From Hericium rajendrae (taxonomy: Eukaryota > Basidiomycota > Agaricomycetes > Russulales > Hericiaceae): a stretch of 64,000 bases of DNA. The notes beneath the pieces are model-generated. The model did no database searches. It saw only the letters and a program-made list of their open reading frames with translations, and had not been told where the DNA came from. The stretch spans positions 2,480,001 to 2,544,000 of the forward strand of contig CM065880.1 in assembly GCA_033439255.1 (NCBI GenBank). The letters run 5' to 3'. This document shows, in pieces, positions 7,921-42,779 of the stretch. Made by a program: the position numbers and the translations under genes. Every line of letters begins with the position of its first letter. Position 1 is the first letter of the stretch.

Positions 7921-8225
7921 TACATAGGAAGGGCAGGCCTGTCATTGGATGACTGCTACATTGTGACGGACGGGCCAGCGCAGGATGGCCAATCAACAAT
8001 GGCACTTTGTCAGGTTCACCTGGCATTACCTCAATGCACTAAGTGACTGTTTCATGTGGAATGTGTGCTGCAGCACATCGAAAATTTAGATAATGTCATA
8101 TCATGCATGGTGGGCTTCTTTGCCTCCAGAGCCACCCCATTCCGCGGGCCATAGGTTCCGCGGGCCATAGGGTTGGGGGGACAACCCAATTGCCGCGGGT
8201 AGGGGAAGGGTGATGTCTGGGTGGG

Positions 8226-8440
8226 TTCCAGGAAGATTGGGCAGCTGGCCGTTACCGAGTACCTTGCTGAACCCGTGTTGTAGCACACATCACACCAGGA
8301 TGGTATTTATCGAAGTTGATTCTGTGGTGCTGCAGACCACCACCAAGATCCGAACCCCCTCCATGCTTGCCGACTCGTCCGTGACCGGCGGGGACAAGGC
8401 CACAGTGCTTGCAGGTCTTGGGACAAACGAGCCACCATTT
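8226..8440 (-). pseudogene. Captured fragment of ribosomal protein uL15 (RPL27A/Rpl28)
   Basis: One minus-strand frame reads [20 protein letters not shown], then [16 protein letters not shown], then [19 protein letters not shown]. These are three conserved blocks of uL15 in the right order (family: [51 protein letters not shown]). About 45 residues of the normal protein are missing between the last two blocks, so it is an internally deleted fragment. As in the RPS3 fragment, Arg codons have become Cys (KTCKHC for KTRKHR), which is CpG-to-TpG change. It lies between the foldback and the first KDZ-B gene. Confidence 0.85.
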
Positions 8441-8831
8441 GCTTTAGGATGTTTTCGTGATGTGCCGCGGCATCACAATTCCGTCCCTTTCCTCAGGCCG
8501 CCCGTTTCCGTGCATGTGCAGGGGCAGTGGCAAATGCACGATTCCCCCCCTGCATGCAGCAACCTCGCCCGTGTTCTTATCTACCAATCCCGGGGTATCT
8601 CGAACAAGGGCTGTTTCTGACCTTCATGATTGCCTCTACTCTTATGAGTCGACCCATAAGCCAAGGGTCATGCCCCAGTCTGGTACACTGCTAAGGACTC
8701 ATTCATCATTTTCACAATTGGCTCTGGACTGCGATCATGCACAGCGTTTGGATCGGACAGTGTCTACTACCACCATTTCCTATGATGCTTGAATATTGTC
8801 CGTCACAGATCAGGATCCTACAGCACATTGA
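8441..8831. other. Gene-free stretch, left subterminal region of KDZ-B
   Basis: No conserved coding signal was seen. It contains a GTGCCGCGGCATCAC site near 8,460. It may be 3' flank of the minus-strand gene that ends at 8,832. Confidence 0.5.
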
Positions 8832-9968
8832 TTAATGATCCCAACGACGATCCTCGCGCCATGCAAAATACTGATCCTTCAAGTCCTCCAATGATTCCTC
8901 TACCTTCTGGTGGATGTCAATCATGTCCTGAAACCTCTTGCTGCTTCGCGCCGCATTGTCCCTCTGGGAAGCCATCAAACTAATGGCGGACTGCATGATG
9001 ACCGCTGCCGGGTGTCCAACTTCACCGGTATTCAAAAATGGCTGGTCCAGGGGTGGGAGACTCCTCTCCAGATCTGTCTAGATGGAGAGTGAATGGTCAA
9101 CCTTCAATCACATAAATCATAATTTACCATCGTGGACAACGCGGCCTGTCGGGCCTCTGGATCCCCCTTGGGACCAATATTCGTGGTCCAGAAACCCTAA
9201 ATGTCTATGAGACCCAATCATCACATAGTCCATATTTTCTTACCGGTGCATTGGAGCCTTGGTCTACAGCCTTGCCCTTGCTGTTAGATGGCAACGGATT
9301 GCCGCGGCATGAAGATGAGCCCTGTGAGTCAGTGTTAAGACTGATTATGTAGTCTCAATAACGGCCCCTACTGCTGTGGTATTGCCACCCTTGACCTGAA
9401 GGACCTCCATCAGTACGAGGGTCGTCATGATATCCAAACAACCACCTACCGCGGCTTCGCTGCCTGCTGGAGCAGTCTTCCGCTGTTGAAGAATTTTGGT
9501 GCCAGCATGATTGATGAATGCAGGAGACATACCTTTTTCTTTGGCCTGTCTTCATCAGAGTCCGGAATGATGATGACTTCTCTCTCCTGATCTGTTGGAC
9601 GTAAGGGTCCCAGTTTGGAGGCAATGAGCATCCCGCGGGATCTAGTCCTTGGTTGGCCTACCTATGGACATTGTGTTTGCCGCGGCATTCTGTGGGCCAT
9701 TGGCGAGCAGCATGTCGAGTTCTTCCATCAAATCGACAGGCTCCTGGGCCTGGTTTTCATTTTTCGCAGGAGCCCACAACGTGTCCGGGGCATCCTCCAA
9801 CATCGCCGCCCAATCGTCATCGTCTGGAGCATTCACCCTGCTCGCATTGCTGGTGTCGGGACCACGAGAAGGTGGCAAGTCGTCTACTGGCATGAAAGGA
9901 GACAGGGATTCTTCCTTCGGGATGGTGTACAGCCCGTCGAAGAGAGAGAGATCAAAGTTGGAATTCAT
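8832..9968 (-). CDS. Hypothetical protein with acidic N-terminus and C-terminal coiled coil (KDZ-B gene A)
   Basis: The family was not recognised. The start ATG at 9,968 opens MNSNFDLSLFDGLYTIPKEE, followed by an acidic stretch with a VDLMEELDMLLAN helix. Later exons read REVIIIPDSDEDRPKKK and a small-residue segment, VKGGNTTAVGAVIETT. The last exon is helical, with SQRDNAARSSKRFQDMIDIH continuing to a coiled coil and ending at REDRRWDH. Introns near 9,600-9,660, 9,480-9,540 and 9,040-9,340 are inferred from frame changes, and several hold CCGCGG sites. It is transcribed away from gene B across about 190 bp, so the two probably share a control region. It is presumably element cargo of unknown role. 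Exon limits are approximate. Confidence 0.55.
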
Positions 9969-10156
9969 CAACAAGTTGACCAGATTAGGTAGTTCGCGTG
10001 TTGACGTGGCGAGCCACGGATTACCCGATCGTGATCACGTGATCAGCTGTCAGAGACGCGGCGCAAGTCAACACGACGCGGTGAACTCCGTCACGTCTGA
10101 TCTCTTCTGTCCACATCCACTCCCCATTGCTATCTGCTCAGTTTGCTCTCTTTACA
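9969..10156. promoter_or_regulatory. Divergent promoter region between KDZ-B genes A and B
   Basis: A 188-bp gap separates the two divergent starts. It holds GATCGTGATCACGTGATC around 10,028-10,045, a palindromic site with an E-box-like CACGTG core. A related palindrome lies in the divergent promoter of KDZ-A at 26,353-26,366. The regulatory role is inferred. Confidence 0.45.
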
Positions 10157-13100
10157 ATGTCCACTCCAGAACGCACTCTCACCCCCTTGCAGATCCAGCA
10201 CGTCGTGCGGGTTGCATACGTGGCACAGGCCATCGCTTGTTACAAGCAACAGGACAACCCAGATGTGGCCGCTTGGACTGCCCTTCTGGAGAACCACGTT
10301 GTATGCTACCTTCAACTGATTTTTTACGACTACTTTCTTCTTACCGTGCGCACACCGACAGCGTGAGGTACATGCCGGCATGAAAAAGATCATGATTGCC
10401 GGTGATCATTGTGGCCTCTCGGCCTTGTTTCTCAGCTATGTGGCCGAAAGCCAAAAAGCCAAGGAACAAAATCGTCCCATCCGCATCCGTGATGTCTACG
10501 AAGATGATCCGCGTATTGAGCCGCGCAAGGCTTGGGTTCGTATTTGGGCCACGATGGAAGAGGCGGCGGGTCCCGCGGGACAGCCGGATGGCTCAGGTAT
10601 CTGGTGGGCACACTTAGGTATTTTTCATTCCAGCATATTTCTTTTGTTTTCAACATTTTCTGATATCCCTTCTGCCCCACAAGCAGCGCCCCACCATCCA
10701 CCTGGCCCTGTGGTAGACAGGCCTGTGGTCCCCACCGGTGCCCAAGCCCCCACAGCAACCCCGCCTCCAGCAACGGCGAGGCCTCCTCCTGAGAGCACAA
10801 ATGCACCCGCGGCACCCGCGGCATCCTCGGCACCCACAGCACCCGCAGCACCCGCGACACCTGCAGCACCTGCGGCACCCGCGGAAACCGTGTCACCCTC
10901 GGCACCCGCTGGGCGCACGACACGCGGGATACCTCCAGCCCGGACGACACCCGCGGCACCTGTGGCACCCGCGGCACCCGCGGCACCCGCGGCACCCGCA
11001 GCACCGGCACCCGCGGCACCCGCGGAAACCGCGGCACCCACCGCACGCCGGGGACGCCCTGCACGCACCACCCCCGCACCACGCACAGCACTGGATCCCG
11101 CCCCACCGCGCCGTCAGCCCAAAATGCGGAAGAAGCTGGATTTCGTGGAACTCGACACCCGGCAGAGCCGCAAGCATGCGAATTCGGACGAGGAGACCAA
11201 CACGATGATGGAGCAGGGCCGGAAGCGTGCCCGCAGCAAGCCCACCCAGTCGACCAAGAAGGATGAGGTGAACGCTGGACCTAGTGGCCAGGGGACCTCT
11301 CGGCCGAAGAAGAGGGTGTACAAGACGCCGGCCCTCGTTCCCACTGAGGACGAGGAGGAGGATGAGGAGCCCATGCCGGCTAAGAAAGTAAGCTGCAGCC
11401 ACAACTATTTTGTGCCGTGCACTGATCCCGCGGGTTCCAGACACGCAGAAGCAAGCCGCCTGCCACAATAGACGAAGATATGGCTGAGGGCGAGGAGAAC
11501 GAGCATGAAGACAAGGTCCGGAATGAAGAGGAGCACCAGGACGAGGAGGACGAGGATGCCGCCGCCACCGAGGATGACGACGATGATGACGACGATGAGC
11601 CTTTGGCCAAGGTGATGCCCCGCCTTCAAAGATGATTGCACTGCTGACCATAACATCTGCTGTGCAGCGTCAAAGGGTAAAGGGCCCTACTAGCCAGGCA
11701 GCAGAGCCCGAATTACCATCAAGCAAGGTAAGTACCTCTCGATGCCTTGAGGTGTAGACACCAATGCCGCGGAATCTAGAAGGGCAAGAACACAAAGCGG
11801 GTAGCATCGCCTGACAATCAGGGTGATGCTCCTCCCACCAAGGTACTTAGTATTTCAAATATCAGGATGACACAAATTGACTTGGTCCACCATTTACAGA
11901 AGCAGAAAGGTAAGCAGGCAGCAAAGCCTGTTGAAACAGAGGCGGAGATCCCCATCGTAAATGTGAGTGGCATTGTTGCATTGTTGACCAGGACTGATCC
12001 TGTCATGAACAGAAGGACAAAGGGAAGCAGCGTGCATCACCACAAGAGACAGTGCAGAAGGTGCTTCGGAGTAAGGTGAGCAATGATCATTGCTGACCGT
12101 TGTTTGCACACACTCAGCCCTTATCCCGCGGCATATCACAGGCCCCTCCCGCGGATACTGCTCAGAAGGTAGTGGAAAGTCATACTCTAAAAGTCTTGCG
12201 AGGCTGATATTAGGAGTAGCAGAATGAGGTCAAGGACAAGACAAAGCGGTACAGCGACAGCCAGCTGAACAAGGCTGAACTCCGGTTCCGACTGGCTGCC
12301 AAAGCAGTGAAGGTACATCCCTTCGCTGTTTCCATTCCACGACACTGACCAGTGTTGCCAGCTGAGTCCTTGTGGGAACTGTATTGCGCACGGCAAAAAG
12401 GAACTGTGCTTCTACCCAGGAGTGGGGTCTGCCTGCGTCCTGTACACCGCCGGCAAGAAGAAGTGCTCCCTCCGACCCTGTGGTGTCACAAGTGGGGGGG
12501 TGGTCAACTACACCACACCCGAGCTCTGGGATGTCCTCATTCGTCATGGTCAAGGCCCTCTTCCACCCCTTCCTCCTGGGTTCGAGCACCTGCCGCCGCC
12601 TCCCAACCACATGCCGGCTGGCGTGGCATCCGCTGCTTCGCAAGATCCCGCGGCATCGACGTCCTCGGCTCCCGCGGGATCCCAACCCGTGGTATCTCGC
12701 ACAGAGTACGATGGCCTTGTCTCCCGAATGGAGCACCTCATCATGGAGGTTCGCACCCAAGGCGGTGTTATCGAGCAGCTCCGCGGGATGGAGCCAAAGT
12801 TTGCGAAGCTGACGTATGACATTGACGACCACAAGACCGCGATGGCCACGAGATTCGAGGACATCGATGCCCGCATGGACTGCATCAACACGGCCCACTT
12901 CAACGACATGGAGCGCATGGAGCACCGGATGGCGGACGTAGAGGGGAAGTCAAAGACGATCGACCCCGCGGTTCTCGAGGAAGTGGGAAACCACTTCCAG
13001 AAGACAATGCAGGATGGCCAAAGCCAGCTCAAGCAGGACCTGCTGGAGTCTTACCGCGAGATGCTGCAGAACGACTTGGGTCGCATGAGGGAGGAGGTAG

Positions 13101-13432
13101 CCGCGGAACGGGCTGCAGGAGGTGAAATGCGAGCTGAACTCGCTAGACTGACTGCTACTCATGCGGAGAGGCTCCCTCAGTCCACATCAGATGGTGGTCA
13201 GCTCCCAACTATAGCGGCCTCTCCAGCTCCGAACAAGGCATTGACCCTCGGCTTCGGGTGGGCTTCCCGTCAGTCATTGACGCCCTGTCCGTCTGGCAGT
13301 GGTGCCGCGGGTGGTGGTCAGAGTCCGGCCTCCCAGGAGTCCAACGGTGCCGCTGGTGCCGCGGGTTCCCACTCCCCCCGGGACTTGCAGGAAAGCGCCA
13401 ATGAGGACTCTGCAGGTGCCGGGCATGCGTAA
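10157..13432 (+). CDS. Cysteine-cluster, Ala/Pro-rich, coiled-coil protein (KDZ-B gene B)
   Basis: The start is ATG at 10,157 (MSTPERTLTPLQIQHVVRVA). A second exon (about 10,365-10,615) contains IRIRDVYEDDPRIEPRKAWV. A long low-complexity stretch of AAP/TPA repeats follows (10,690-11,090), then a basic region with KKLDFVELDTRQSRKHANSD and acidic runs. Several mini-exons between 11,400 and 12,310 are separated by about 50-bp introns, many with one CCGCGG palindrome. The last exon (about 12,360-13,432) has a cysteine cluster, CGNCIAHGKKELC, followed by two more cysteines within about 20 residues, resembling a zinc-binding knuckle. A heptad-rich coiled coil (DGLVSRMEHLIMEVRTQG onward) and a low-complexity tail ending AGHA follow. 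The role is probably DNA or chromatin contact for the element, which is inference. Mini-exon borders are uncertain. Confidence 0.65.
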
Positions 13433-13753
13433 TTGACACCTGCTTTCCACTCGCATCTAATCGTTTTGTTCTGCATATCACTCGATTGTCGGTTTACGTG
13501 TCTATTTACGATATCATCATCTTGAATTAATCGTGATCTTTGAATTAATCATGGTCTTTGAATCAATCATGGTCTTGATGCTCTGCAAACAGAACTGACA
13601 TATATTGAGATGGGAGGTAAGGTAACAATCGTTTCAGGGAGTCATGAATGTCCAGTAATTTCGTATGGAAGCCTCTATGCAGTGTTGAAACCACACCAGT
13701 ATCTGTTCCCGTGGAGTTGAAACCGCAGGATATCACCGTGGTCGGTGCCCATA
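13433..13753. other. Intergenic gap with a short tandem repeat
   Basis: This is the space between convergent genes B and C. About three copies of a 20-22-bp unit (TTTGAATTAATCATGGTC) lie around 13,515-13,578. Nothing else was recognised. Confidence 0.6.
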
Positions 13754-14411
13754 CTAACGCCTTCTGCGGCTGCTAGCACCTTCCTTCCCACTGGTGCCTG
13801 ATGCTTTATCACCGGTCGTTCGTGCAGCGGGTTTCTTTCGCAGTGCTGGGGTCTCAATAACCACCTCCAGAGGGTGCCCCTTCCTTCTTGCAGATCGTTC
13901 GAGCTCTTCCGTACTAATCCCGCGGCTTGATCCAGCAGCAGGAACATCGATCATTCCCGCGGGATTCATGCCACTAGGTCCTGCCGCACTCTTCCGAACA
14001 GGACCAGCTGCCTTGGCCTTACCCCGTTTTGCCTTCGAAGCATCCTGCGCCATCGCCCTGCCTTGCTGTTAGTACCAAATAAACATAGCAAGGGATGACA
14101 ACAAACTCAAGGACCCGTTGGCTGGGCTTTGGTTGACGGGGCACCTCAAGGATGTTGGCAGAGGTAATGTCTGCCTGCGTGTGATTCTTGTTACGTTTGG
14201 GGGCTGGCTGCCCTTCCACTTCATCTCCACGGCGACGCTTCTTGCCAGTGTCAGACGACTGCGTCAAGCCATTCCCCCTCTGGACACAACTCTGCAGTCA
14301 GTGACCCATGCCGCGGGATCGTATGAGAAGTGGTACCTTCTTGGCACGCGGCTCTTCCGCGGCATCCTGCTCTTGACGCCTCATGAGCATCTGCGACGAC
14401 TTGACGGTGGC
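13754..14411 (-). CDS. KDZ-B accessory gene C, 3' exons (separated from the 5' exons by KDZ-A)
   Basis: These exons continue the gene at 30,850-34,249 on the far side of KDZ-A. The first starts after CTAACAG at 14,412 and reads ATVKSSQMLMRRQEQDAAEE, ending PRAKK before a GTACCA donor. This pattern matches the last exons on the other side (AGKSSETSKKHQDDDQ to EEEPAPK). Further exons read GKKRRRGDEVEGQPAPKR and SARRKGHPLEVVIETPALRK, ending in GASSRRRR and a stop at 13,754. The tail is basic and low in complexity, as expected for a disordered nuclear C-terminus. Introns at 14,300 and 13,960 carry CCGCGG sites. Whether transcripts still splice across 16.4 kb of inserted DNA is unknown. Confidence 0.6.
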
Positions 14412-14453
14412 CTGTTAGTGAGACATGGCTCAGTGGTTAGTCAGTCGACCCAG

Positions 14454-14565
14454 TAGCCACTTAGCTAAATGTACAGTAGTAGCCACCCGACACATACCTA
14501 AATGCACAGCAAGTCGCTAGTGGCAAGTCATCAGGCATTTAGCTAAAGTGTCATTTAGCTAAATG
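14454..14565 (+). repeat. Left terminal inverted repeat of KDZ-A
   Basis: It begins TAGCCACTTAGCTAAATG and ends CATTTAGCTAAATG. It holds TTTAGCTAAA-type sites near 14,460, 14,538 and 14,553, and a further site lies just inside at 14,597-14,611. It mirrors 30,685-30,796. Confidence 0.85.
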
Positions 14566-14911
14566 GATGATGACTTGCCACTGGTGGCTTACCAGTGATT
14601 TAGCTAAATGTCTAACACTACATGCAAAGATAGCTTTTCGGCAAAATCATGACAAAAATAGATTGATGCCAAAACTGTACAAAAACGACAAACATAGCAT
14701 TTGCTACTTCCGACACATGCGGTACAGCCGGCCCGATCGAAAAAATACAGGGGAGGGCACAGGGCACACGAGAGCAACGAGACAGCAACACAGGAGGTCA
14801 ACATGATAGCAGAATGAACAGGGAGGAAGGCGTGAGGAAGCAATGTCTAAGGGGGCATGAGCCTTGGCCATCCTAAAAGCGAGCAAAAAATCACTTACCT
14901 GAGGCGGCTGC
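14566..14911. other. Gene-free stretch between KDZ-A left end and transposase stop
   Basis: No coding signal was recognised. One TTTAGCTAAA palindrome lies at 14,597-14,611. The rest is probably 3' flank of the transposase gene. Confidence 0.5.
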
Positions 14912-17900
14912 CTAGTTGTCCTCCTCGTGCTCTACCACCTCCACCTCTATCCGAACAACAGCAGAAGCTGCCTGCTCCCTGTCGTATTCATCGTCTTCAT
15001 CCCAGTTGAGATATACACTCCTGTCGAGGACAGGCATAGCCCTGCTCCGCACAGCTGCCCATCGCGAGGCAAACTTCGCAGCAAGGCTGCGGTACATGGC
15101 CGCATGCTCAGAGGCATAGGCATGAATACCTTCGATTAGTGGAATGTCACCGTCAATAACTGCGTCACGCCTGGCCGACTTGTCCTCCCAATCATTTGCC
15201 TCTGTGGCGAACGTCTCGAGGACCCGACGCATCTCTTCCTCGACATGCATGACCTCTTCGTGCCACCGCGCTGCACGTACTTTCGACTTTGCCCACTCAA
15301 CGCGAAGTGCTTCAAGAAAACAGTCCAGTCAGCAGATGAGACCATGGACCGGTAAGTACTTACCTTCATGTAAGTCTTTATCATCGTCATCATCCCCGTC
15401 GGGAATTAAGAACCATATCCATGAGACCTTCTTGCGCCCATTGCCCTTCTGCGCCTGGCTCCGCTTCGAACGGCCCTGCATGCTTTGAGATGCACCCTGC
15501 GTGCTTTGAGAAGGATCCTGTGTACCAGCCAGGACACGAGCCTCCCCGTCCTCAGTGTTGGCCTCCGGCAGCCCAATAATGTCGATAAGGTCTACGTTGA
15601 GCGAGACGACATGTTCGTCGTGCAGCTCACGGAGCGTCTTTGCCCAATCCCCGCCGCCAGTAAGGCGCATCAGGGCGGCACGGGCGTGTCGATACCGCAG
15701 CTTGCTTGTCTTGACGCGCTCGTCGATGCGGGACTGGGTATGTTGGGCGCGTGTTAGCCTGCGTTGTCCACGTACTTGGGCGCGTTTGAACGTGTTCACG
15801 AAAGACCGTAGGCGGAGGTGGCGCCGCAGGTCATCCAGCGCATCTTCGGCCTCCGCTAGGCGCAGTTTTGCCTCCATGTCAGCAATGCCAGCCGCGCAGT
15901 AGGCCAGCCGAGCCTCTGGGGCCAAATCCGAGGGCATATTGAGGGCTGTCTCCTCTGGTTTCGGCAGCTGCACACCCTCAGGGACCTCGGTTGAAGCGCC
16001 GTCATCAGAAGCTTGAGTAAGGCCAGGCATGTGGATGCATTGTTGGCGCCGAAGCTTGCGAAACTTCCGCCTCAAAGCGCGGCGGCGGTCCTCGAAGTCG
16101 GATAGGTCCATCGTCGTCGGGAGCCTAGCGGCCCGAACGTCCTCAATGAGGAGACGCCTGCTTCAGTCAGCATTACAAATAATAAGCCACAAAGGAAAAT
16201 GTACTCACTGCTGCTGTTCGATCTCAAGCCCGAGCAACAGGAATGTCAGCCCGCTCGCATCGCCCGCATCATCAGCCGCTTGCCCTAACGCGGCCTGCTC
16301 TTCTTCCTTTAGTTCGATCTTCAGCTGCGCCATAGATTTTTCTTCAACATAACATCAGCACAAGGCAGCCCAACCTGACGTGGTGTACGTACTTGCGTGG
16401 GGCATGGCAAAAGGGCTCGGCATGCGCTCTTTGTCTGCATCCCAGACGGCAAACATGTCCTCCCATTCCTCCAGCTGCAGTGGTCGTTTCTCGCGCAGGC
16501 CGGCCTCGAACTCCTTGAACGCACGGTGTTGAATAATGGCGTTTGGGATGGCGTCAAGCATCTTCTTAAGGAGAAATGCACCTGGGACTCGGTCAGTCGG
16601 CTAGTAGCCTCGAAGGAGAATGGACATACCCATGCCGACGACGCGCCTCCAGTTTGCGAACCCACAGAAGTCGTCTAATGTATCCCGCCACGAGCCCGGC
16701 CCCATCTCCTTTGTACTCGATGCAGCTCCATTGAGCCAGGACCAATTTCTCTCCGGGCCTTCGAGCTCAGATCGACCCATACCAACTGTTTTTCGTGAGG
16801 AGTGTTTGCTGTGACAAGGATCTTTATGTGCCTGGAGGTGAAATTCCGGGACCAGAAATATCATGTTCGAATGCGGAATATTGAGCTGTAGGTCATCTGG
16901 GAACACCTCCACCCGCCGCCAGAACTTCTTCTTCCACTGGCAAGCTAGGTCGTACGATGCGACGACGATGCGGAGGACTTCATCGGCGAGCGTTGAGAGA
17001 AAGACGTAGTCCATGTTCACGTAACTAGTCGACATCAGCAAAAGCGGTATAGTAAAAGCGGCGAAGGCTTACCGCTCGCCTTTCTGCAGGTCACCAATGC
17101 CATTTGGCCTCCAAAATTGGTGCCGGCCACAGGTTACAGCCCCCACTCCCGTGGACGCTAGGCCCGTCGTCCTCTTGAGGTTCGCCGTCGCCAGCGCAGC
17201 AAAGGCAACACATGAGCTTATCTAAGACCAAGCTCAGGCCTCAGAACACAGCGCGTAGCAGAGCAACGAGCACGGAGAGCATACGCACCTCGTCGTCATT
17301 CGTACGCTCCAGTACAAACTCCCCGTATCTCTTGGTCTCCACAAAATACGCAAACCCGCTTCCGAGCGGCGGATCCTTCTCCTCACTTGAGCGCAGGCGA
17401 CTTTTGAGGCGAAAGTTTGCGTCCATGGCGAGGACTAGCCAGTACAGGAAGCTACGAGCTAAGGTAAGCCCAAGAAACTTCAGCAGGAGAGAGGCACGCA
17501 CGCAGTTTCCGGTGGGGCGTCCGCCCAGTTAGAAGGCAAATTAACTCCCGGACGAGGACAGGCGGGACAGCGAACAGCGAGCTCCCCCTCCCTCGTGCCC
17601 GCAATGCCGCTAGGATCTAGACCCCGTTTTCCGCGCTTGAGAAGCAGTGTGAAGCGCCATTCGCGGACCATAAGTCTGAACATAGGAAGCCGATCCTACC
17701 GCGTAAGATCAGCACGAGGCCGCCGAGGAGAATGTGGGCAGAGGCACTCACTGGTAAGTCAAGGACACCCGCACCATTAGTCTGTATCTCCAGGGCCTTG
17801 TAGAAGTCGTACATGGACGTCTTCCCCTGCAAATTTAAAGCGTGGAACTGCCGGAGGACTGCCATTGTTGCGCAAGTCTGTGGAGAGAGGGGGGTTGCAG

Positions 17901-18035
17901 GCCACCAGGCGACGCGCAGGAGTTGAGTCCAATGCTCACAGCTGCCAGCGCAGCCGCAGTAATCGACTTTAACGCGGTGGATGCCATTGGTATGCAGGAC
18001 TACGAAGTCCTTATGGCCGGGGACCCGCGCAGGGC
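14912..18035 (-). CDS. KDZ transposase of KDZ-A, 3' part (interrupted by the 3.2-kb insertion)
   Basis: This is the catalytic body of a KDZ (Kyakuja-Dileera-Zisupton) transposase, an RNase H-fold enzyme. Exons in order read GHKDFVVLHTNGIHRVKVDY CGC; QGKTSMYDFYKALEIQT; MFRLMVREWRFTLLLKRGKR with an ACPRPGVNLP motif; VLAMDANFRLKSRLR with the first catalytic Asp; LASTGVGAVTCGRHQFW to QKGER; and VVASYDLACQWKKKFW with the second Asp. Then come FHLQAHKDPC and EGPERNWSWLNGAASS with the catalytic Glu. The last exons (about 16,111-15,360 and 15,300-14,912) are a helical coiled-coil tail ending EVVEHEEDN. About nine introns of 45-70 bp are implied. Apart from the insertion I saw no break. Neighbours on the same strand are the TET/JBP and viroplasmin-like genes. 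Confidence 0.85.
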
Positions 18036-18769
18036 ACCATCTGAGAAATTTACTACTGGTATATAACACTATGTAGGCTATATAGCTTTCCTAGGTCCAT
18101 AGCTGTCCTCTTTTCTACATAGCAGTCTCATAGCAGTCAAGTAATCTATGCATAGCTATCATAGCTTGCCATAGCTACCATAGCATAGAGTATAAGCTAT
18201 ATAGCTGCTATAGCATAGAGTATAAGATATCATAGCTGTCATAGCCATTATAGTATAAAATTGCTATAGAAGCTATATCAACTATACACTATATCACTAT
18301 TGTTATAGTATATCTAGCTAGTAAGATTTCTATCCACTCTATGTCATTTCTATCAAATATTTGCTTCTAGCATGCTAAAATAATTATAAGCTCATTAATT
18401 TTTGTCTTAATCACAAATATTAAAAGCTTAAAAATCATTATATTTTTCATAAAATTTCATTCTACAACACTACTACAACTAACAAAGATTATTATAACTA
18501 CAAAAGACAAAGTTACAACAACTATAAAAAGCGAAAATATAAACAAGAAAATATATTAGTATTGGAAAGATGTTAAAGATAACATAAAGGCTTACCAAAC
18601 TAACAAGAAAGCGAAAATCTGAAAGTGTTGAAACATGATATCACTTATCTGATGAGCATATAAAAGTACTTTATAACAAGTAAGAAAGCATTAGCATCAG
18701 GCATAAGAGATTAAGAATAAACACTCACCTTAATACAGAACAATAAAGAAAAAGAACAACAACAACGAG

Positions 18770-18970
18770 CAAGAAGGACTGACAACGATGAGCAAAAAAG
18801 ATCGACGACAACGAGCGAGAGACCGATGACGACGAGAGAGGTAGCGACAACGAGAGAGGTAGCGACAACGAGAGAGCTAGCGACAACGACGAGGGAGAGA
18901 GCAACGACAACGAGCGAGAGAGCGACGACAACGAGGGAGAGAGCGACGACAACGAGAAGGGAGCGACGAC
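18770..18970. repeat. Low-complexity ACGAGAGAG/ACAACGAGC tract
   Basis: Purine-rich GCGACAACGAGAGAG-type units about 9-21 bp long. A shorter relative is in the second element at about 45,460-45,540. Confidence 0.8.
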
Positions 18971-19541: not shown

Positions 19542-19559
19542 ATTCTTTCGACATCCCGA

Positions 19560-30796: not shown

Positions 30797-30849
30797 CATC
30801 TAGTGGTGGGTTAGTTACTCATGTGGCTGCATCTTAGCAGGAGTCACAC

Positions 30850-33800: not shown

Positions 33801-34249
33801 ATGCGTCCAAGTCTGCTTTTCTAACTTGCGCTGCGACCAGCCGCTTGTTGTACTTGCTGACGAAGTGATGGTCGGGGCCTGTCTCCTTTTTTCTACCATT
33901 GTTGTTGAACCACTGAGCGACTGCCTGGTACAAGGATTAAATATGGAAGGAACGACATGATGTGGTGCACGCTTACCCGCTTCACAAGAAACCTGTCTTC
34001 CTTCCAGTCCTTGAACTCCTTCGGATACTTATCCCTCATTGAATTCATGGCATTGTTGATGACCGTCTGTCGTGCCTGCTTATCGCCATCCCGGAACTCT
34101 TCGACATATGCCTTGATGACCTTCTTGTATCTGTCCGGGAGCGAAAGGGTCTTAGGATCGATACCCTTGGGAGGGGGAACGTCCCGCGGCGCAGTTGACT
34201 TGGGCTTCTTGCTGTTCGTCTTGCCCTTGGAAGGTCCGCGAGGTGCCAT
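30850..34249 (-). CDS. KDZ-B accessory gene C, 5' exons
   Basis: ATG at 34,249 opens MAPRGPSKGKTNSKKPKSTA, then YKKVIKAYVEEFRDGDKQAR. Following exons read AVAQWFNNNGRKKETGPDHH, RAVKYIKDFSKEMFRHCGMT with MSAHVNSKGMLCQAE, and EPNVADAFGKWAEFAL. Then come IKYDVDSGWPVLLPMDEWKV and WGDVWKSGTGYVKAEYLPDG. A long Ser/Pro/acidic low-complexity region (32,700-31,700) follows, then HLPEGWDTKWGGWSFQKEWL and a hydrophobic helix LLVLALLLGMLM. Short basic exons (AGKSSETSKKHQDDDQ and others) end at 30,850, where the KDZ-A insertion begins inside an intron. The last exons are at 14,411-13,754. Block order matches gene D of KDZ-A. Many introns hold one CCGCGG palindrome (near 31,092, 33,045 and 33,273). Function unknown. 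Confidence 0.7.
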
Positions 34250-34874
34250 TTTGTCAGATGGAGGTAGGAATGAGGATGTGGGAGGGTAAGGGTGTAGGTT
34301 GACTTGTTGAGAGGACCACGTAGCACTTACCCAAGCGAATGCCGTCGGTATTAAATCACCCGGTCGGTTAGCGTGAAGCTATCGTAAGTCTGGGGCACAG
34401 CAAGACGTTGCAGTGGCCAACAGTCAGGTAGTAGGCAACGGTCTCAATCTACAGCACACAGCAAACTATTTATATTCTTGTCTCTGAAATGTCGATGAGC
34501 AAGAGACGTCGTCAGTCATGCAGTCCAGCGACACTGCACTATGCAGCAAGGGCTGTCCCTGCCGCGGAGTGGTGCCAGCAGCCATTTGATGATTACATAC
34601 AAAGCATAACACAGCTTCGATGCCTCAGCAATAGATGCGGTGATAAGAAACCCACAAAAACACATTCCGCCCCGAAAAATGAATTTAAAGATGGCAAGGC
34701 AGCACGATGTATCTACGCCCAGCAATAGCCGCGTAGGAACCAACATAAGCAATCATTAATGAACGCACCATCAATAGAACCTGTGTCGTTGCTGTCACCC
34801 TGCCTGCCCCTGCCATGTCACCTCTCCTGCCCATCCCTTATTCCAGAGCGGTTGCATGCCCATACGAGGTTGAA
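34250..34874. promoter_or_regulatory. Divergent region between gene C and TET/JBP-2
   Basis: About 620 bp separate the divergent starts, with one CCGCGG site near 34,561. Open frames here show no conserved feature. It presumably contains both promoters. Confidence 0.45.
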
Positions 34875-36151
34875 ATGGCAGACTATCTTTCTGCCCGCTT
34901 TGCAAATGTTCTGGCACAGAGGGGAGCCGCGGGATCGAGCATTAGCGATGTACGAAGGCCTGCAATACTACCTCTCCATGTCCTGATCGAGTTGGACTTC
35001 ATTGCCCACAAACTGGCAGATGCCGCGGAAACCAGAGGTATGTTTACGGCATCGTACCGCGGCATCTGATTGACGTGCTTGGCAGTACAAGTACATTGGG
35101 ACATGGCTCGCTACGCAGAGCGGAGGAGGACTGAGGACACCCCTGCATTCTTGAAGCGCTATCCGCCTCTATCTGACCGCCCAGTGCAGACCAATCCTTG
35201 CGTCGGGGTCGATATCGGGGAACAGGCCTTCTTGTGGTACTTGCCTGACTTGTTGTCAGAGGAGCGTGAAGTATGCCTAGTTTCAGTTGCGATATGCAAT
35301 ATTTTTATGATTTCCACATGCAGAGGAAGATGCTAGAGGCTACAGAGCACCTCAATGAACACTTCAAAGTCGCTACCAGCGCCAGCCAGGCAACATGGCG
35401 TGAGTATGCTGGGCTCTTCATTGATCCCGCGGCAACCCATCGCTTCTCACCTGGCACGGTCACCCTCTCTCCAGGATGGTTTGCACAGGGTCATGATGTA
35501 TGTGCAGTGGATATATGCGTATACGTAGGCTACGTTCTGACGTATGTACAGATGCCAGGTGATGATTGGACGGTGTCAGCAAATTTGAACCCAAAACGTC
35601 GCAACAAAATGACAGCGAAACCATTCAAATGGCTCCGAGATATTGCGGAATCCGCGGCTCTTATCAGTGCAATTCTAGCAGTGGTCAACCCAGACCTTTA
35701 CCGTGCCGCGGCTTCCGTGATTGGCGTACAGAGGGAAGACGAACACTTGGCTTCAGTTGCACATCGATGGAGTTCGGTATTCAACGGAGTCTCCATCATA
35801 TCAAATCGCATCACCCCATCACACAGAGATAGCCAAGGCCTGACTGGAGGCTACGACATCTTGTGTACCATTGGAGACTACTCCGGGGCCTGATTCAACC
35901 TTCCTGGTTTGAATTGGACCCTGAACTACCCCAGGCGCACAGTCATAGCCGTGGCAGGGAAGTCCCTGAACCATGCTGTGGGCCCATTCCGCGGAGAGCG
36001 TATCTGCTATGCGTGGTTTTTGAGAGACAACGTTCACGAACGGGCAAAGGTTATTTCTCCAGGCTGGATGAACCTGCGGGAGTATTCGGATTTATTGCCG
36101 CAGGATAGAGATGGTCTAGCTGATGAAGATGGTGATAATTGCCATCGATAA
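34875..36151 (+). pseudogene. TET/JBP-family dioxygenase 2 (KDZ-B), one in-frame stop
   Basis: This belongs to a different subgroup from the KDZ-A enzyme, the one widespread in basidiomycetes. Exons read MADYLSARFANVLAQRGAAG, then VQVHWDMARYAERRR with NPCVGVDIGEQAFLWYLPDL, KMLEATEHLNEHFKVATSAS, and NLNPKRRNKMTAKPFKWLRD. The core is ISNRITPSHRDSQG with HRD as the HxD metal motif, YDILCTIGDYSGA, FNLPGLNWTLNYPRRTVIAV, SLNHAVGPFRGERICYAWFL with the distal His and an Arg, and DNVHERAKVISPGW. A TGA stop at 35,891-35,893 splits the core between GDYSGA and FNLPGL without changing frame. CGA to TGA at a CpG would explain it. Introns at about 35,037, 35,271 and 35,499 have GTATG donors. It lies just upstream of the KDZ transposase on the same strand. 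Confidence 0.8.
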
Positions 36152-36243
36152 GAGTTACGAATACCATCGATCAAATTTACACATGTTCTCGTCGAGCAGG
36201 TTTGCCGTGTTCTTGTATTCTACAGTCATCTTCACCCAATCTC

Positions 36244-39200
36244 ATGGTAACCAGAAAGAGTACTACCAGGGTTCGTCGCAAGGAATTTGGCAATCCAAGT
36301 CAACCGGCTCGAGTGGCACTAGTGCTCAAGGAGACGTCCCGCAGATATCGCCAAGTTGCGATTCCAATCCGTAATGTGAATCCCAGCAACCCGGCCCGCC
36401 GGGCCAGGAGCACACCACTGCGCGGCGCATCCGGTCAGCAATCTGGAGAGGGCCCGAAAGAGGACACCATACCGGATGTGGATCCCGATCGTGTACCCCT
36501 TGCAAATACATTAAGGAAGGTAAGTATTGAATTGGCATCGAGTCACGTAGTGCGGCGGCATGACTGGCTTTACAATAGGGCCAGCATGACTTCCTACGGG
36601 AATGGCTTGATGAGCGTCAGGATTATCTCCATATCCTGTTGGAGCATGAATGTCGGCCTGCGGATGGCAAGTGCATCTCATGCAAGGAACGCCCAGGTCT
36701 GTGGAAATGTGGAGATTGTGTGGGCCGACCCTTTGAATGCACGGCATGCTGCGCACGGCGCCATCTGGCACTTCCACTCCATCGCGTTGAAAAGTGGACT
36801 GGCGAATTTTTTGCACCTTCATGGCTGCGTCTAGCTGGTGTTCGGGTCCACCTTGGTCACGGTGGAGAAGCATGTCCACATGCCGCGGGAAGCTGGAAGG
36901 GAGATGGAGTCCGGGTTGAGGATGAGGACGATGATGCGGAGGATGATCAGACGAACCAGAGTAACGAAGACAACACACTGCACTTCCAGACAGATTCAGT
37001 CCGCAAGCAGGACATGGATAATGAAGGCAATCCCATTCTCTGCTTGATCGATTCGAACGGAGTCCATCAGCTGCCAGTCGTATGGTGTCAGTGTCCAGAT
37101 GCAGAGGCACCAGCAAAGCAGCTGTTTCGGATGGGCTTCTTCCCAGCCTCCTTCAATGCACCACAATCTGCATTCACGTTTCATGTTTTGGATGACTTCC
37201 GACTGGATAATTTAGAATGCAAGACCACAGCCTGGCATTTCTATGCGAAACTGCGTCGGCTCACGAGCAGTGCATTTCCGGCCAGTGTACCGGTGAGATA
37301 CATACTTTCTTGTAATCAGAGGGAAATTTCTTTGATCAGATATTCCTCCAGAATCGGTACAGAGAGCTTCTCAGAGTAGAAAGAGAATGGCGCGATATGA
37401 AGTTGAGAAAATGGTTTGGGGCTGGCCATACGGACTTGGACAAGCCAGATGCCGCGGGTGCATTTGCGCTGTTTTGTGCAGCATGCCCTCAGCCAGGATT
37501 CAACTTGCCGGACAATTGGAAGGAATTAGATCCACGGAAGTAAGCTGCATGTCACCTCAAGAATATTCCTCTCAGATTCATACCTCGTCAGGTGGATTTT
37601 CTTAAGAACATTTGTCATGGATGGCAATTTTGACTCGACTGGGGTGAAGATGCGAAAGCCAGAGAATGATGTCCAGCTCAGTGATGGCACCGGATTCATG
37701 GTGGGAAGGAAAGAGTATCAGGAACATCTTAAAGTTGCTTTGGAGGTCACCAAGGTAGGGTGGTTCAGCATTGCCGCGGGTCAAGGTTGCTTGACCATGT
37801 TTTAGCGCTCCACCTGCAATGAGCACCGCGCTGTAAACCGTGTCAACTCGGATCGTCACAACATTGAAAACACCGGAATCGGTGCTACCGCCTGTGGCCA
37901 TGGTGCTTACTATCCCCATTCTGTTGTTGACTTTCAAAAAGGCGAAAGGTGCGTCCCGCGGGTTCCATATCGCTATCCCGCAGCATGGCTCATGCACCCC
38001 CTCAACCAGACAAATGAACATGGACTACTCCATGTGCCAGGCCATCAACCACAATACTGAAGGGATAGAAATCATCTTGAAATACTATGACGTCATTTGT
38101 CAATGGTGGAAGCATTTCGATGAGCGAGTAGAGAGAAGTCCATATCTCAACCTTCCAACGAGTTTGAAGGAAATGAAGAAGGCGATTGGGCTGTTCCATG
38201 TCCACGGACACAAGGATACTTGCATCCCGTCGTTCTCACCAAACTACATCATTGGAGCCAGACAGTTTGATGGGGAAGTCGTCGAAACACTCTGGGCACC
38301 ACTGAACGAGATTTCTCGCAGTACGTCTGGTATGACGACTTCTCATCGCCGAGAGGTCCTGGACGACCATATGAATGACTCAAATTGGAAAAAGATGACA
38401 GGGATGGGTGGGTTCATTCACTCCCGAGCAATAATCATTGATCCTGATCATGGTGCACAGTATCGTACCTTACCCGCAAGTATAAAGAGGGCAAGGCAGG
38501 CATTGCGGAGGCACGTCTTGGGTTCGAAAATATCGACGCAACAGTCGGGGCTGAGAATAGGGACACGTGGCTCAAAGCAGAGCAGCGTGCGCAGGATAAG
38601 CGCAGCGATAAGCCTGAAGTCATGGTCCCGATATATGACACAGTAATCAAAACAGGTGCGCGTAACTTGGTACGACGTGTTCCCGCGGCAAGGGGTTGAT
38701 TTCCGCGGGATACACAGCCCCTTCAAGAGCAGAGATCCTATCCAAATTGAATGAGCGAGAGCGAAAGAAGGAAAAGGGGCAAGGTGCCGCGGCATGGATT
38801 ACTCTAGGACTTCGCATTCAGGAAACTCAGTAAGTCTTGCCAAAGAATGCCTTATTCATTCAGCATTTCATTCTTTTAATGGAACTGGCAGGCTATCTAT
38901 CCTAGCACATCTGCGCAAGTTGGGAAAAAACCTTACCGCGGAGCAGAAAAATGATCTAGCAGACCGCAGACGTCGTCTCCAGGCCAGGGTTTCGACATTT
39001 GAGAGGGCGGCAGGCGACTATCTCCCACAGGATACAGATGTCACAGGTGGTGGCATCCCATTGTCTGAAAATGAAGGGGAAGACTTCGACCTTGTAGGTG
39101 AAGATGGCGAGGATATCGAACAGCCGGAACAGCAACATGCTCCAGGGAATGCTGCAGCAGACGGCACAAATGTGTATGTCCCAGTGGAGAGGGTCGCCCT

Positions 39201-39980
39201 GTCAATCCCATCCTGCCTGGACGACGAGTTGCGCGCGTTGCCGGAGATGCGCTCGCTTGTTGCCAAGGAGGCCGAGTTGAGGGAGGGCCAAGCAAATGAT
39301 GCTTTGCAGAGCCTTCGTCTAGCATTGGGACATAAGGCGTTTGTTTTCAGACATGACGTCCGCAATGCTGGCAGTCAACGCGGCAAAACCCGAGCCTGGG
39401 CAGATGTCATGTCCATCGAAAACACAGTACAACAGCAGGCCCGCATATATCGGAAGGCAAGAGAGGCATTAGTTACATTGAAAGTCAAGTCGTCGGTCCT
39501 GAAAAGACTTCAGCTGCTGGAGAGGGCACAGCTCAAGGTCCATACCGCGGTATTGGATCCCGCGGCAAGGGGGCTGCGGAATGCAAATCTGCCATGGTTC
39601 TGGAGTGTAGATGTGAAAGGGGACTCCGCTGAGGCTACATGGCTGGCAGATTGTGAGCCAAAATCATTCTTGCATGTCCGATTGTTCATCCTTGTCTTAC
39701 AGTCCATCGTGTCCAATGGCTCCGCGCCCGCGCTCGGTTGCATCGCTGGGAGGAGCAAATGGTAGTGCTTCCATTTGAAATGGAGTGGACTGTCTGCGGG
39801 TTCAGGACACGTGGAGCAGCCTGGAATGCTAGGAAGATATGGGCTGACAGGAAGGGGAAACTGGGTCACTTGGCATATGCAGCCCGTCAGAGTGCAATGT
39901 GGGCAGAATTCGCAACCACCGCAGAAGCTGCATTTGCTCTTGCTAGAGGCGACGATCCTCCATCGCAGTTTGGCATGTAA
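36244..39980 (+). CDS. KDZ transposase of KDZ-B, apparently intact
   Basis: ATG at 36,244 (MVTRKSTTRVRRKEFGNPSQ) starts a basic N-terminus. The second exon holds the CxC2 cysteine cluster (GKCISCKERPGLWKCGDC, FECTACCARRHLALPLHRVE) and LAGVRVHLGHGGEACPHA. The RNase H-fold core follows: DSNGVHQLPVVWCQCPDAEA, LDDFRLDNLECKTTAWHFYA, AACPQPGFNLPDNW, TFVMDGNFDSTGVKMRKPEN with the first Asp, NIENTGIGATACGHGAYYPH to FQKGER, KYYDVICQWWKHFDER with the second Asp, FHVHGHKDTC, and ARQFDGEVVETLWAPLNEIS with the Glu. A long coiled-coil tail ends SQFGM at 39,980. About ten short introns are implied, several with CCGCGG (37,776, 37,956, 38,683, 38,703). No stop interrupts the inferred exons, so it may be functional. 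Confidence 0.85.
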
Positions 39981-40112
39981 TATATTCAGGTTATTGAGTT
40001 CGAGTCGGGTCCAAATCAATGCATACATTTGTCACTTAAGGCAGTACTTATGTCCTTGATGTGATTCCGCGGCATTAAATCCCACGGCAGCATATCCTAC
40101 CGCATGGTACCA

Positions 40113-40185
40113 CGTCCCGCGGCACTGTATCCCATGTCCCGCGGCACTGTATCCCATGCCCCGCGGCACTGTATCCCACTGCCTA
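40113..40185. repeat. Three tandem 26-bp units CCGCGGCACTGTATCCCATG
   Basis: The CCGCGG motif of KDZ-B has been duplicated in tandem between the convergent transposase and gene G. Confidence 0.85.
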
Positions 40186-40198
40186 TCATATTCACTTG

Positions 40199-42169
40199 TC
40201 ACATATCCCCAGAGCTGCCCGCCATGTTTTCGATACCATGATACCCTTTGCTTATGTTGGCCCATTTGAGCAGGGCCCCCATCTCCATTGCCATCTGATC
40301 GTCTTCACCCTGCCTTGATTTCAGACCGGTTATCATGTTCTTGGTCAGGGTAATTGCACTGTCGATGTTCTGCACCATGGGGTCATTGCATCGAATCTGT
40401 ATGAATACAGAAGTAAGTAGAGTCCAGCAGCATTGGTCGTGGCTCACCTCTGTCACAGCCAGCTGGATGGCGACGATGAGATGGTCCAGAACGTTTGGCG
40501 GTATCGAAACCCCTCCCTTTCGGAAAGCCTTATCCAGTGCTGTTGCCTGGGTATTCACTTGCTTCTTTGAAAGCCACTCCCCCCCACGTTCCATCCACCA
40601 CAATGGCATGTAAATTCTGGTCAGGGTAGTCTTACCCCTTTGAAAGGGTATATGAGACACAGAAACAGGGGTCTTATGGGCCTCGTATGCCTTGGTGCAT
40701 ATGTGGAATGTGTTGTACGCATTCCTTAAATAGTCGTGGACTAGGAGGGGTTCGCAGTGGAAGGCTGCCCACCCGATGATGAAACCCGCGGCATCCTAGT
40801 CGGGTTCAGCATCAATCAGAATCCAATCAGATCAATCACCACTTGCCAATTCTGCCTTTATGCCGGCATAGATCTGATCCTTCATAATATCATAATCTGG
40901 GTAATCCACCTTGTCTTTCAGCCATAGGATGGCATCACGAATGCGCCAAGCAGACTCGTTGAGGAGCTGTTGTGCGAGGCAATGCGGAGGTGCTTGGGGA
41001 AAGTCCGTGTCTTCTGGATTTAGGGGAGGGGGTCCATCCCACTCCTCCTCATCATATCCATATTCGTCTAGGGTCGGCCAGCTACTGTCTACACTACTGA
41101 TTAGCAATGCCAGGATCTCGACAATTCCGCACACACCTGAGCCGCGGGTTTGGTCCGTCAATGGATTGATATCCTGGTCTGAACCGTCGTTGCTAGGATG
41201 GCTCTGCATTTGGCTTGTTTTCCAGCGAACTTGGTCAAATAGAACGAGATGACAGAGGGTGCGGAAGTGTGGACAAAATACCGAAAGGGGCATTGATCAG
41301 ATCATCGGACTGTGGAATACTACTGCCAGATTTGGATAACGCTTTAGGCTAAAGAACAAAAGGTCTATGAATTTGTACGTCCGTCTGTATCATTGCCATC
41401 GGTGACGTCCTCTGCATTGGCACCACGTGTACTATGATTACCCTTCATCGCCGCCCCTATTTCGCTATTCCACTGCTTCACCTTGGTATCCTCGGCAGCC
41501 AACGCCCTCTGCAGCATACCGCGCGCTTCCTGTTGGGCTGTTTCTGACTCGTTCAAAGCCTCCAAAAAACCTTTGTTTGTTTCCTCGAAAAGATCTGCAG
41601 GAGGTGCAGAGCCAGGTACAGTATAGTAACCATTCTAGATATTTGGTAGATTTGAGAATTTAGTGTGTATGATCTGGCAAGAAACATTTCAACTCACTCT
41701 CGAGAAGAGGGCGGCGTTATACCGCGGGAGTGTATCGGTCAATGGTGGCATGCCGTGGGTGAGTCCTGGGCTAACAATGCCGCAGGATGTGTGCGCACGA
41801 GCTGCACGAGCAGTCATGGTTGAGGTGGATTCAGGAATGAGAGGATGCCATGAACGATCCATATCTTCTATGAAGCGATGATAAATAGATTGTTGGACTT
41901 CATCGGAACATTGGATGCTATCATGGCTCAGTTGAACCAAGCCAAAATCTCTGGCAAGTACTACCTAAAACGATGGTGATAGTGTGATTAGCACATTGAC
42001 ATGGCTTTGCGAAGATGGATTGCTGTACCCATTGCTTCACATTCAGGTTAGTGTCACCGACTTCCGATGCCTGTAGTGCAGCAAGAGACTTTTCCACCCG
42101 ACGTTTTCGTTCCTGCATATCGCGGGTGCGGAACTCTTCAAGGGGGTCTGGTGAGGGACTCGTTGACAT
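40199..42169 (-). CDS. Hypothetical multi-exon protein (KDZ-B gene G)
   Basis: The family was not recognised. The start ATG at 42,169 opens MSTSPSPDPLEEFRTRDMQE, then a helix KRRVEKSLAALQASEVGDTN. Further exons read LVQLSHDSIQCSDEVQQSIY with FIEDMDRSWHPLIPE, a helix MEALNESETAQQEARGMLQR, VEILALLISSVDSSWPTLDE with an acidic YDEEEWDGPPPLNPEDTDFP, and RIRDAILWLKDKVDYPDYDI. The last exon has MPLWWMERGGEWLSKKQVNT and NIDSAITLTKNMITGLKSRQ, ending SSGDM at 40,199. It is mostly helical, with neither signal peptide nor membrane segment, and lies convergent with the transposase. It probably serves the element. Exon joins are approximate, and I cannot exclude two genes. Confidence 0.5.
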
Positions 42170-42420
42170 ATGGAAAGTGATGGATGGAGATGAAGTGTAG
42201 ACCTCGCCGCGAAACCCTACCACATGACAATTCAGGCACGTGCGCGATACCAGTTGTGATTGTTAAAGTTAGTGTTTTATGCAATGCGCACATGTGCGGG
42301 TATATGTTATATACCATACAGCTGGTTTATATTTTGAATGACTAATTTTGTCTGCAGTGAAACCCCCCACTGTGATTGATCCCGCGGCATCACGCTGAAA
42401 TTGATCCCGCGGCATGGTGA
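42170..42420. other. Promoter-side spacer of gene G and inner edge of right terminal repeats
   Basis: No gene was seen. Two close CCGCGGCAT sites lie near 42,380 and 42,406 at the start of the GGCC/CAATGA repeats. Confidence 0.5.
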
Positions 42421-42779
42421 TGACCCAATGGATGTCAGAGGATGGACCGGTGAATGATGAATATACAGTGGTATTGTAAGAGGACCGGCCGGCCAATGAC
42501 CCAATGACCAGTAGAAATTGTTAAGAGGATGGTCCCATTAATGACCCAATGGACGGTAGGGGACCAGCCGAGCAACTGAAAACCCGCGGGATCGAATGGG
42601 CCAGCCAATGATCCATTGGACATAAGAGGATGAGCCGGTCAATGATGAATGAATCGTGGTATTATAAGAGAAGCGGCGTGTGGGGGTATATGTTATACAA
42701 GCTCATTAGTGGCCTCGCCATCCGTCGGTGCGTGCTTCAATCGATTTGGGTGTTGTGTTCAGCATCTGAGCCTCTTGCA

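Follow-up and report, generated by a model that had tools for sequence, protein, structure and literature searches.

The window, i.e., the whole stretch of 64,000 nucleotides that was analysed, contains a large element, KDZ-B, and a second element, KDZ-A, which is nested in it (14453-30797, with TIRs at 14453-14565 and 30685-30797, 89%). The analysis covered this one window and this one copy of KDZ-B, which was taken as positions 1-14,452 and 30,798-44,744, leaving out the nested 16.3-kb KDZ-A. Open frames on the plus strand of KDZ-B matched a TET/JBP dioxygenase (35270-36149; PF12851, 1.8e-15) and a KDZ transposase (36579-39762; CxC2 PF18803, 2.8e-26; KDZ PF18758, 5.5e-27). TET/JBP genes have repeatedly been acquired by fungal transposons. 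A PDB sequence search with the TET/JBP frame yielded 8jkk (1.8e-13) and CcTet (7vpn, 2e-13), and its HRD motif aligned with the HRD of CcTet. Further open frames encode a Pro/Ala-rich protein (10404-11468, plus strand), a cysteine-cluster protein (12311-13429, plus strand), one or more genes at 31152-34378 (minus strand) and a gene at 40202-41296 (minus strand); the frame 33,639-33,936 had a sub-threshold match to Dcc1 (0.018). Neither the KDZ or TET frame nor a two-row KDZ alignment found relatives among virus contigs, and the alignment also found none in the genome contigs of a prokaryote collection; such collections are silent on fungal sister copies.

Repeats lie within the body of KDZ-B and on both sides of it, and the ends of the element, sought among these arrays and inserts, were not located. 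A 29-bp minisatellite block (1-921), which has CCGCGG in many units and contains a piece of a gene for ribosomal protein S3, is followed by a 7.1-kb palindromic array block (922-8049) of 144-bp and about 155-bp tandem arrays, with two arms (1195-3694 and 5381-7920) that are 96% identical and enclose an AT-rich centre. Two copies of a 16-bp tandem repeat on CCGCGG lie at 8140-8171, and a 9-bp repeat within the Pro/Ala-rich frame (10803-11039) contributes 10 CCGCGG. On the right side, a 22-bp tandem repeat (40110-40178) and a 30-bp minisatellite (43000-43187) have about one CCGCGG per unit, and a 143-bp array with CCGCGG (43338-44744) is broken by an insert at 44745 and resumes at 47476-47841. 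The latter segment had been considered as an old relic in host DNA; this was rejected, as it is the right array continued beyond a 2.7-kb TA-flanked insert. For this reason, the loss of one aligned core site from it in each of two comparisons is weak evidence. The motif was contained in 13 of 18 array rows of KDZ-B compared with 0 of 10 outside it, whereby the rows were merged by hand and partly overlap. Satellite units descend from one another, and counts within them are therefore not independent. One satellite pattern was without a match in virus contigs, and another was without a match in prokaryote genome contigs.

Distribution and enrichment of CCGCGG

The window contains 133 copies of the hexamer CCGCGG, with 127 of them in KDZ-B, two in KDZ-A and four elsewhere. 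The array block (1-8,219) has 49 copies, the left part of the body (8,220-14,452) 31, of which 21 lie outside the tandem tract, the right part (30,798-42,380) 34, of which 29 lie outside tandem tracts, and the right arrays (42,381-44,744) 13. The insert (44,745-47,475) and the array remnant (47,476-47,841) have none, and the remaining four are in 47,842-64,000. All ten site positions quoted in the sequence-only reading were within two bases of a CCGCGG, and the scarcity that it had described for KDZ-A was found. Its span of 8140-42600 was revised: it takes in KDZ-A, which is nested and poor in the motif, and the true territory is wider, starting at base 1 and ending with the site at 44,524. 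Sites every few hundred bases were confirmed (mean gaps of 295 and 380 bases in the two body parts), but an even, bead-like spacing was not supported, as the gap CVs of 0.96 and 0.74 were equalled or undercut by 60% and 7% of random placements.

To exclude repeats, a non-tandem body of 17,414 nt was defined, from which 10,791-11,049, 32,631-32,699, 40,106-40,179 and everything below 8,220 and above 42,380 were dropped. It contained 50 CCGCGG, i.e., 2.9 per kb throughout and not confined to the ends, compared with 3.20 ± 1.56 in dinucleotide shuffles (maximum 8, n=300) and 3.47 in order-1 simulations (maximum 11, n=200). This enrichment is strong. Enrichment was seen neither in KDZ-A (2 versus 8.7 expected) nor in 44,800-64,000 (4 versus 5.1 expected), a control that includes the 2.7-kb insert and the array remnant; the cleaner region 47,842-64,000 likewise has 4 sites. 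Among all 4096 hexamers CCGCGG ranked first by z in both halves of KDZ-B, tandem tracts included (34 versus 1.84 in 8,140-14,450 and 37 versus 2.08 in 31,001-42,600).

That composition produces this excess, through G+C content, CpG, codon bias or Ala-rich proteins, is hardly credible. The coding sites do favour an Ala reading (29 of 38); 12 of the 38 come from the Pro/Ala-rich gene. However, the other seven G+C-only palindromic hexamers occur only one to seven times each in the body, and the dinucleotide shuffles did not match the excess either. The excess also survived synonymous shuffling (n=2000), with 38 sites versus 5.08 in 14 coding-like segments (maximum 14), 26 versus 3.02 without the Pro/Ala-rich gene (maximum 10), and 11 versus 1.10 in the TET and KDZ exons (maximum 6). 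The 26 sites use all three codon phases (17, 6 and 3). Coding-like and other DNA of the body are alike in density, with 2.86/kb and 2.90/kb, respectively. Composition, codon choice and Ala-rich protein were thus ruled out as cause. The TET/JBP frames contain sites at 35427, 35652, 35706 and 35989, the second and third within the Pfam match, while the transposase frames have sites in and around them and none within the CxC2 or KDZ profile matches.

Form and upkeep of the site

The flanks extend the core to approximately ATS-CCGCGG-SAT, with little information beyond ±4. In 100 half-sites A or T was present at +2 in 92 and T at +3 in 54, and at least three of the four flank letters were matched at 13 of the 21 left-hand and 15 of the 29 right-hand body sites. 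The forms that had been proposed for the site stood only in part. The spread of the core was verified, but ATCCCGCGGGAT is almost solely a satellite form, with 32 perfect copies in 1-8,219 and one in the body, and ATGCCGCGGCAT had no occurrence in counts over the window. What is dispersed is the core with degenerate flanks rather than a perfect 12-mer. Because the flank information ends at about ±4, body sites are points, and the idea that the core travels within some longer dispersed repeat was ruled out.

At least three flank letters were matched at 28 of the 50 perfect body cores (baseline 5.1%) and at only 11 of 72 single-mutant body cores. In the satellites the corresponding fractions were 41 of 62 and 37 of 49, and 26 of these 37 well-flanked mutant cores were CCACGG or CCGTGG. 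The base composition of KDZ-B outside the motif points to methylation, with a CpG o/e of 0.70 and a TpG+CpA of 1.27 in the body versus 1.04 and 1.02 in KDZ-A. Despite this CpG decay, most body cores with good flanks have remained intact. This bears on the possibility that the sites spread from the satellites without any function, by slippage, gene conversion or biased mutation. Several array families share the core, and arrays amplify and decay, as such a process would require; yet no conversion tract is visible around the short flanks, CpG decay acts against CCGCGG, and the well-flanked body cores are mostly perfect, which makes functionless spread quite unlikely.

A local demethylation footprint around the sites was sought by comparing CpG retention near and far from them, with a negative result. 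The near-minus-far CpG fraction was -0.029, a value reached by 0.878 of 500 random placements, and the CpG o/e was 0.62 within 50 bases of sites versus 0.71-0.76 farther away. That retention is not raised near sites counts against local demethylation in the germ line, which predicts the opposite.

Candidate readers and known systems

The sequence-only reading had named transposase, methylation, chromatin, compaction and immunity as possibilities and had chosen none of them. One option is that CCGCGG is a binding site of the KDZ-B transposase, serving end recognition in the terminal arrays and, along the body, compaction of this very large element so that its distant ends can meet. The hexamer is palindromic, like the sites of dimers, the array blocks are densest (49 in 8.2 kb and 13 in 2.4 kb), and KDZ-A also has palindromic sites near its ends. 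However, the KDZ-A palindrome, TTTAGCTAAA, is kept within about 160 bases of the ends, although the transposase frames of the two elements are related (37% identity in the two-row alignment). It follows the pattern of conventional subterminal transposase sites, which CCGCGG in KDZ-B does not, and if inner sites were bound about as tightly as the termini, more aborted or internal transposition would be expected. A role purely at the transposon ends is a poor fit, and the transposase option as a whole appears rather improbable.

Zinc-cluster factors are numerous in fungi, and a host reader, either a CGG-binding factor of this type or a methylation reader, could recruit transcription or silencing while KDZ-B merely accumulates sites. 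In yeast, dimers of Pdr1/Pdr3 read the identical hexamer, according to the available part of the source, in which it is a promoter element of host genes and is not spread over a transposon (PMC3091778). But the rest of the window (44,800-64,000) is unenriched, coding-like DNA has the sites just as often as other DNA, which is unlike promoter elements, and a site that recruits silencing should be lost from the body, where it is kept; a host reader is unlikely.

Within KDZ-B, the cysteine-cluster protein is an unproven candidate for a DNA-binding protein. Its frame contains C-x2-C-x8-C-x8-C-x2-Y-x6-C, predicted with low confidence to be followed by long helices. The Zn2Cys6 zinc-cluster pattern is C-x2-C-x6-C-x5-12-C-x2-C-x6-8-C. 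The candidate departs from it in having five of the six cysteines, a tyrosine replacing one, and a first loop of x8; the strict pattern had no match anywhere in the six frames, and a relaxed one also picked up antisense frames of low complexity and, in KDZ-A, a frame at 21,530. In a Pfam search of 10 KDZ-B frames (E up to 10) the candidate matched no family, and three other frames had weak matches, the best being bZIP_Maf (0.084; frame 38,755-39,762). A PDB sequence search with the candidate gave five weak matches, the best (0.16) to a coiled coil, and two single-sequence structure models were too poor for use (mean pLDDT 56.5 and 49.6).

A close likeness was found in the VANDAL transposons of Arabidopsis. 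According to the available part of the source, VANC21 binds YAGTATTAY, copies of which form tandem repeats in noncoding DNA, and VANC lowers methylation throughout its own elements (PMC5735166). In both cases, as far as those texts were available, one DNA transposon family has many copies of a short family-specific word (PMC5735166, PMC10398659), the word is amplified in tandem arrays, a gene of the element can counteract DNA methylation, and a related element, here KDZ-A, has a different word. In contrast, the VANC21 motif is not a CpG palindrome and is noncoding, while coding-like DNA of KDZ-B has as many sites as other DNA, which speaks against a VANC-like reading; VANDALs are of the MuDR type (PMC12730594, in part) and KDZ-B is of the KDZ type. 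Moreover, binding and methylation loss have been demonstrated for VANC, whereas for KDZ-B they are proposed. In the mushroom transposons Kyakuja and Zisupton a KDZ transposase likewise adjoins a TET/JBP gene; for Kyakuja-1_LB and Kyakuja-2_LB the available part of the report describes 7-bp TSDs, CA..TG ends and no TIRs, and neither CCGCGG nor "subterminal" occurs in its main text (PMC12730594). Among the matches listed in the literature searched, there was no description of a CCGCGG motif in KDZ elements. Neisseria also labels its own DNA with a short word, in the form of the DNA uptake sequences, which pervade coding and noncoding DNA alike; these serve bacterial DNA uptake and have no mechanistic link to KDZ-B.

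A possible self-recognition system

The earlier idea of a functional site along the whole element is supported by the strong enrichment in both coding-like and other DNA, the palindromic flanks, the few decayed forms in the body and the near absence from the two inserts. Our main reading, with a probability of roughly 0.4, is that KDZ-B is a DNA transposon of the KDZ type, large and composite, that bears a TET/JBP dioxygenase gene, and that CCGCGG is its dispersed self-recognition site. By analogy with VANC, though with another motif and other proteins, the site probably serves a putative element-encoded dimer in anti-silencing beside the TET/JBP gene. A homodimer encoded by KDZ-B would bind the many copies of CCGCGG along its own DNA and would mark the element as self. 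The mark would steer anti-silencing, i.e., the oxidation or removal of cytosine methylation, to KDZ-B alone within the genome, and the TET/JBP enzyme plausibly takes part. Occupancy would scale with the number of sites, which would explain why they are kept in exons and amplified in tandem. The unraised CpG retention near sites, the abundance of sites in coding-like DNA, the lean of coding sites to Ala and the imperfect cysteine cluster of the candidate binder count against this reading.

In its fullest form, which is tentative and somewhat improbable as a whole, the proposal describes a transposon-wide address code. A CpG palindrome in exons, spacers and satellites would let the putative dimer coat KDZ-B and target the element's own TET/JBP oxidation to it, so that both CpGs of a site would escape decay while the remainder of the element decays; words would differ from one KDZ family to the next, and the system would be a fungal, TET-based and independently evolved counterpart of VANDAL anti-silencing. 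Oxidised 5mC is enriched in the transposons of two mushrooms, according to the available part of that report (PMC8889193), and it has been speculated, in the available part of another, that mushroom-type TET/JBP enzymes show no target specificity in oxidising methylated bases (PMC12730594). With a site that is dispersed and specific to its family, TET/JBP would gain a targeting signal, which is directly testable, and, if true, KDZ-B would exemplify strong selection for a DNA word in the exons of a transposon.

CCGCGG enrichment in KDZ-B

The window contains two KDZ transposons, a sign of fungal origin. KDZ-A (about 16.3 kb) begins and ends with 113-bp inverted repeats (14,453-14,565 and 30,685-30,797; 89% complementary) and is flanked on both sides by DNA with a common CCGCGG signature. 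These two stretches (1-14,452 and 30,798-44,744) were treated as one element, KDZ-B. No target duplication of KDZ-A was seen in the sequence inspected, and its nesting in KDZ-B is based on the inverted repeats and the CCGCGG signature. By transposon type KDZ-B belongs with the TET-carrying KDZ elements already described (PMC12730594); neither CCGCGG nor "subterminal" occurs in the main text of that article.

The sequence-only reading had noted a CCGCGG-centred palindrome throughout KDZ-B, and this pattern turned out to be real, strong and unusual. KDZ-B contains 127 of the 133 CCGCGG sites, KDZ-A contains two, the region 47,842-64,000 four, and the 2.7-kb insert at 44,745-47,475 none. The KDZ-B body, i.e., the 17,414 nt outside the terminal array blocks and tandem tracts, has 50 sites versus 3.2 in dinucleotide shuffles (maximum 8 among 300). 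CCGCGG was the top over-represented hexamer of 4096 in each half of KDZ-B, and the individual counts of the other seven G/C-only palindromes in the body ranged from 1 to 7. The count in KDZ-A was below expectation (2 versus 8.7), at a higher G+C content (0.565 versus 0.525). Within the window, and for this one KDZ-B copy, ordinary explanations of the pattern are rejected.

Site densities in the body were equal in coding-like (26 in 9,092 nt) and other DNA (24 in 8,281 nt). The TET and KDZ exons contained 11 sites, compared with 1.1 after synonymous-codon shuffling (maximum 6 in 2000 shuffles), and 14 coding-like segments, which were chosen by hand from open frames without transcripts and one of which includes a stop codon, contained 38 compared with 5.1 (maximum 14). 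All three codon phases were used, and an alanine reading was favoured (29 of 38 sites, or 17 of 26 without the Pro/Ala-rich open frame at 10404-11468 (+)). The TET_JBP profile match spans two sites, and none lies inside the CxC2 or KDZ profile matches.

Flanks, apparent upkeep and tandem arrays

The 50 body sites were pooled over both strands to yield 100 half-sites. G or C was found at +1 in 79, A or T at +2 in 92, and T at +3 in 54 of them; this extension is symmetric, and hardly any signal was left past +4. The 12-mer ATCCCGCGGGAT of the sequence-only reading represents the form found in the satellites, with 32 copies in 1-8,219 and a single one in the body.

A low CpG content together with raised TpG is the usual mark of methylated CpG turning into TpG. 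The observed/expected ratios of CpG and TpG+CpA were 0.70 and 1.27 in the KDZ-B body excluding the motif, 1.04 and 1.02 in KDZ-A, and 1.06 and 1.11 at 44,800-64,000. CCGCGG, with its two CpGs, would therefore be expected to erode in KDZ-B. In the body, good flanks were found at 28 of the 50 perfect cores and at 11 of the 72 cores with a single mutation (about 4 expected at a baseline of 5.1%), and the sites thus seem to be maintained there. The respective satellite values were 41 of 62 and 37 of 49 (chiefly CCACGG and CCGTGG), counts that are not independent because the units are copies of one another. Comparison of the left palindrome arms revealed an intact partner core in 13 of 15 and 13 of 17 cases. 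CpG retention did not rise closer to the sites, which counts against anti-silencing targeted by CCGCGG; therefore, protection extends no further than the bound word, or the word is maintained by selection only, or anti-silencing is not the correct explanation.

CCGCGG occurs in KDZ-B arrays with periods of 9, 15, 16, 22, 29/30, 42, 143/144 and about 155 bases. It was present in 13 of 18 array rows in KDZ-B and 0 of 10 outside, after 58 overlapping rows had been merged by hand to 28 with some overlap remaining. Arrays likewise form around the binding word of Arabidopsis VANC targets (PMC5735166). The satellite arrays at 922-8049 form a 7.1-kb palindrome with the ends CAGTCACTTAGTGCATTGAGG; a further copy of this end word lies at 47805-47825. 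Two inverted copies of a ribosomal protein S3 gene fragment, at 42785-42922 (+) and about 281-403 (-), both adjoin CCGCGG minisatellites. The right copy, which was the one searched, matched Pfam Ribosomal_S3_C (1e-10) and PDB S3 chains (to 3.8e-41); the fragment is a captured piece of a host gene.

Conventional sites in KDZ-A

KDZ-A contains five copies of TTTAGCTAAA, at 14453-14612 and 30685-30797, none of them further than about 160 bases from an end of the element. This is the conventional design of transposase sites, and the element-wide pattern of KDZ-B therefore stands out. The main rival explanation of that pattern is that a transposase coats KDZ-B via the CCGCGG sites.

KDZ-A also carries a frame at 24833-25387 (-) that matches the RNase H1 N-terminal (Cauli_VI) domain (3.3e-9), and 149 bp of KDZ-A (18986-19134) share 87% identity with a segment of the 2.7-kb insert (45544-45690). 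This insert (44745-47475) has 13-bp inverted ends CATCTGAAAAATT with TA on either side and interrupts the right 143-bp array.

A putative element-encoded reader

The symmetric core suggests a dimer as the binder, and yeast Pdr1 and Pdr3 recognise opposed CGG triplets, CCGCGG (PMC3091778). The product of the KDZ-B open frame 12,311-13,429, with a cysteine cluster followed by long helices in a low-confidence model, is a candidate reader. It is a lead only, because it has five of the six cysteines of the cluster and no profile match, and because the relaxed cysteine pattern also matches a KDZ-A frame and low-complexity frames. The HRD motif of the TET/JBP frame aligns with that of CcTet, in a comparison limited to this motif. 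In Laccaria and Coprinopsis, DNA transposons are enriched in oxidised methylcytosines (PMC8889193).

From the symmetric core, the precedent of CCGCGG-binding dimers and the element's own TET/JBP frame, we favour a putative element-encoded reader with self-targeted anti-silencing. We infer methylation of KDZ-B, binding of a reader and removal of methylation. KDZ-B may thus resemble VANDAL/VANC self-recognition in its working. It is not a member of that class, the similarity being one of putative function, and in contrast to VANDAL/VANC the motif is not restricted to noncoding DNA. A protein encoded by KDZ-B would read CCGCGG along its own element and would direct anti-silencing onto KDZ-B itself.
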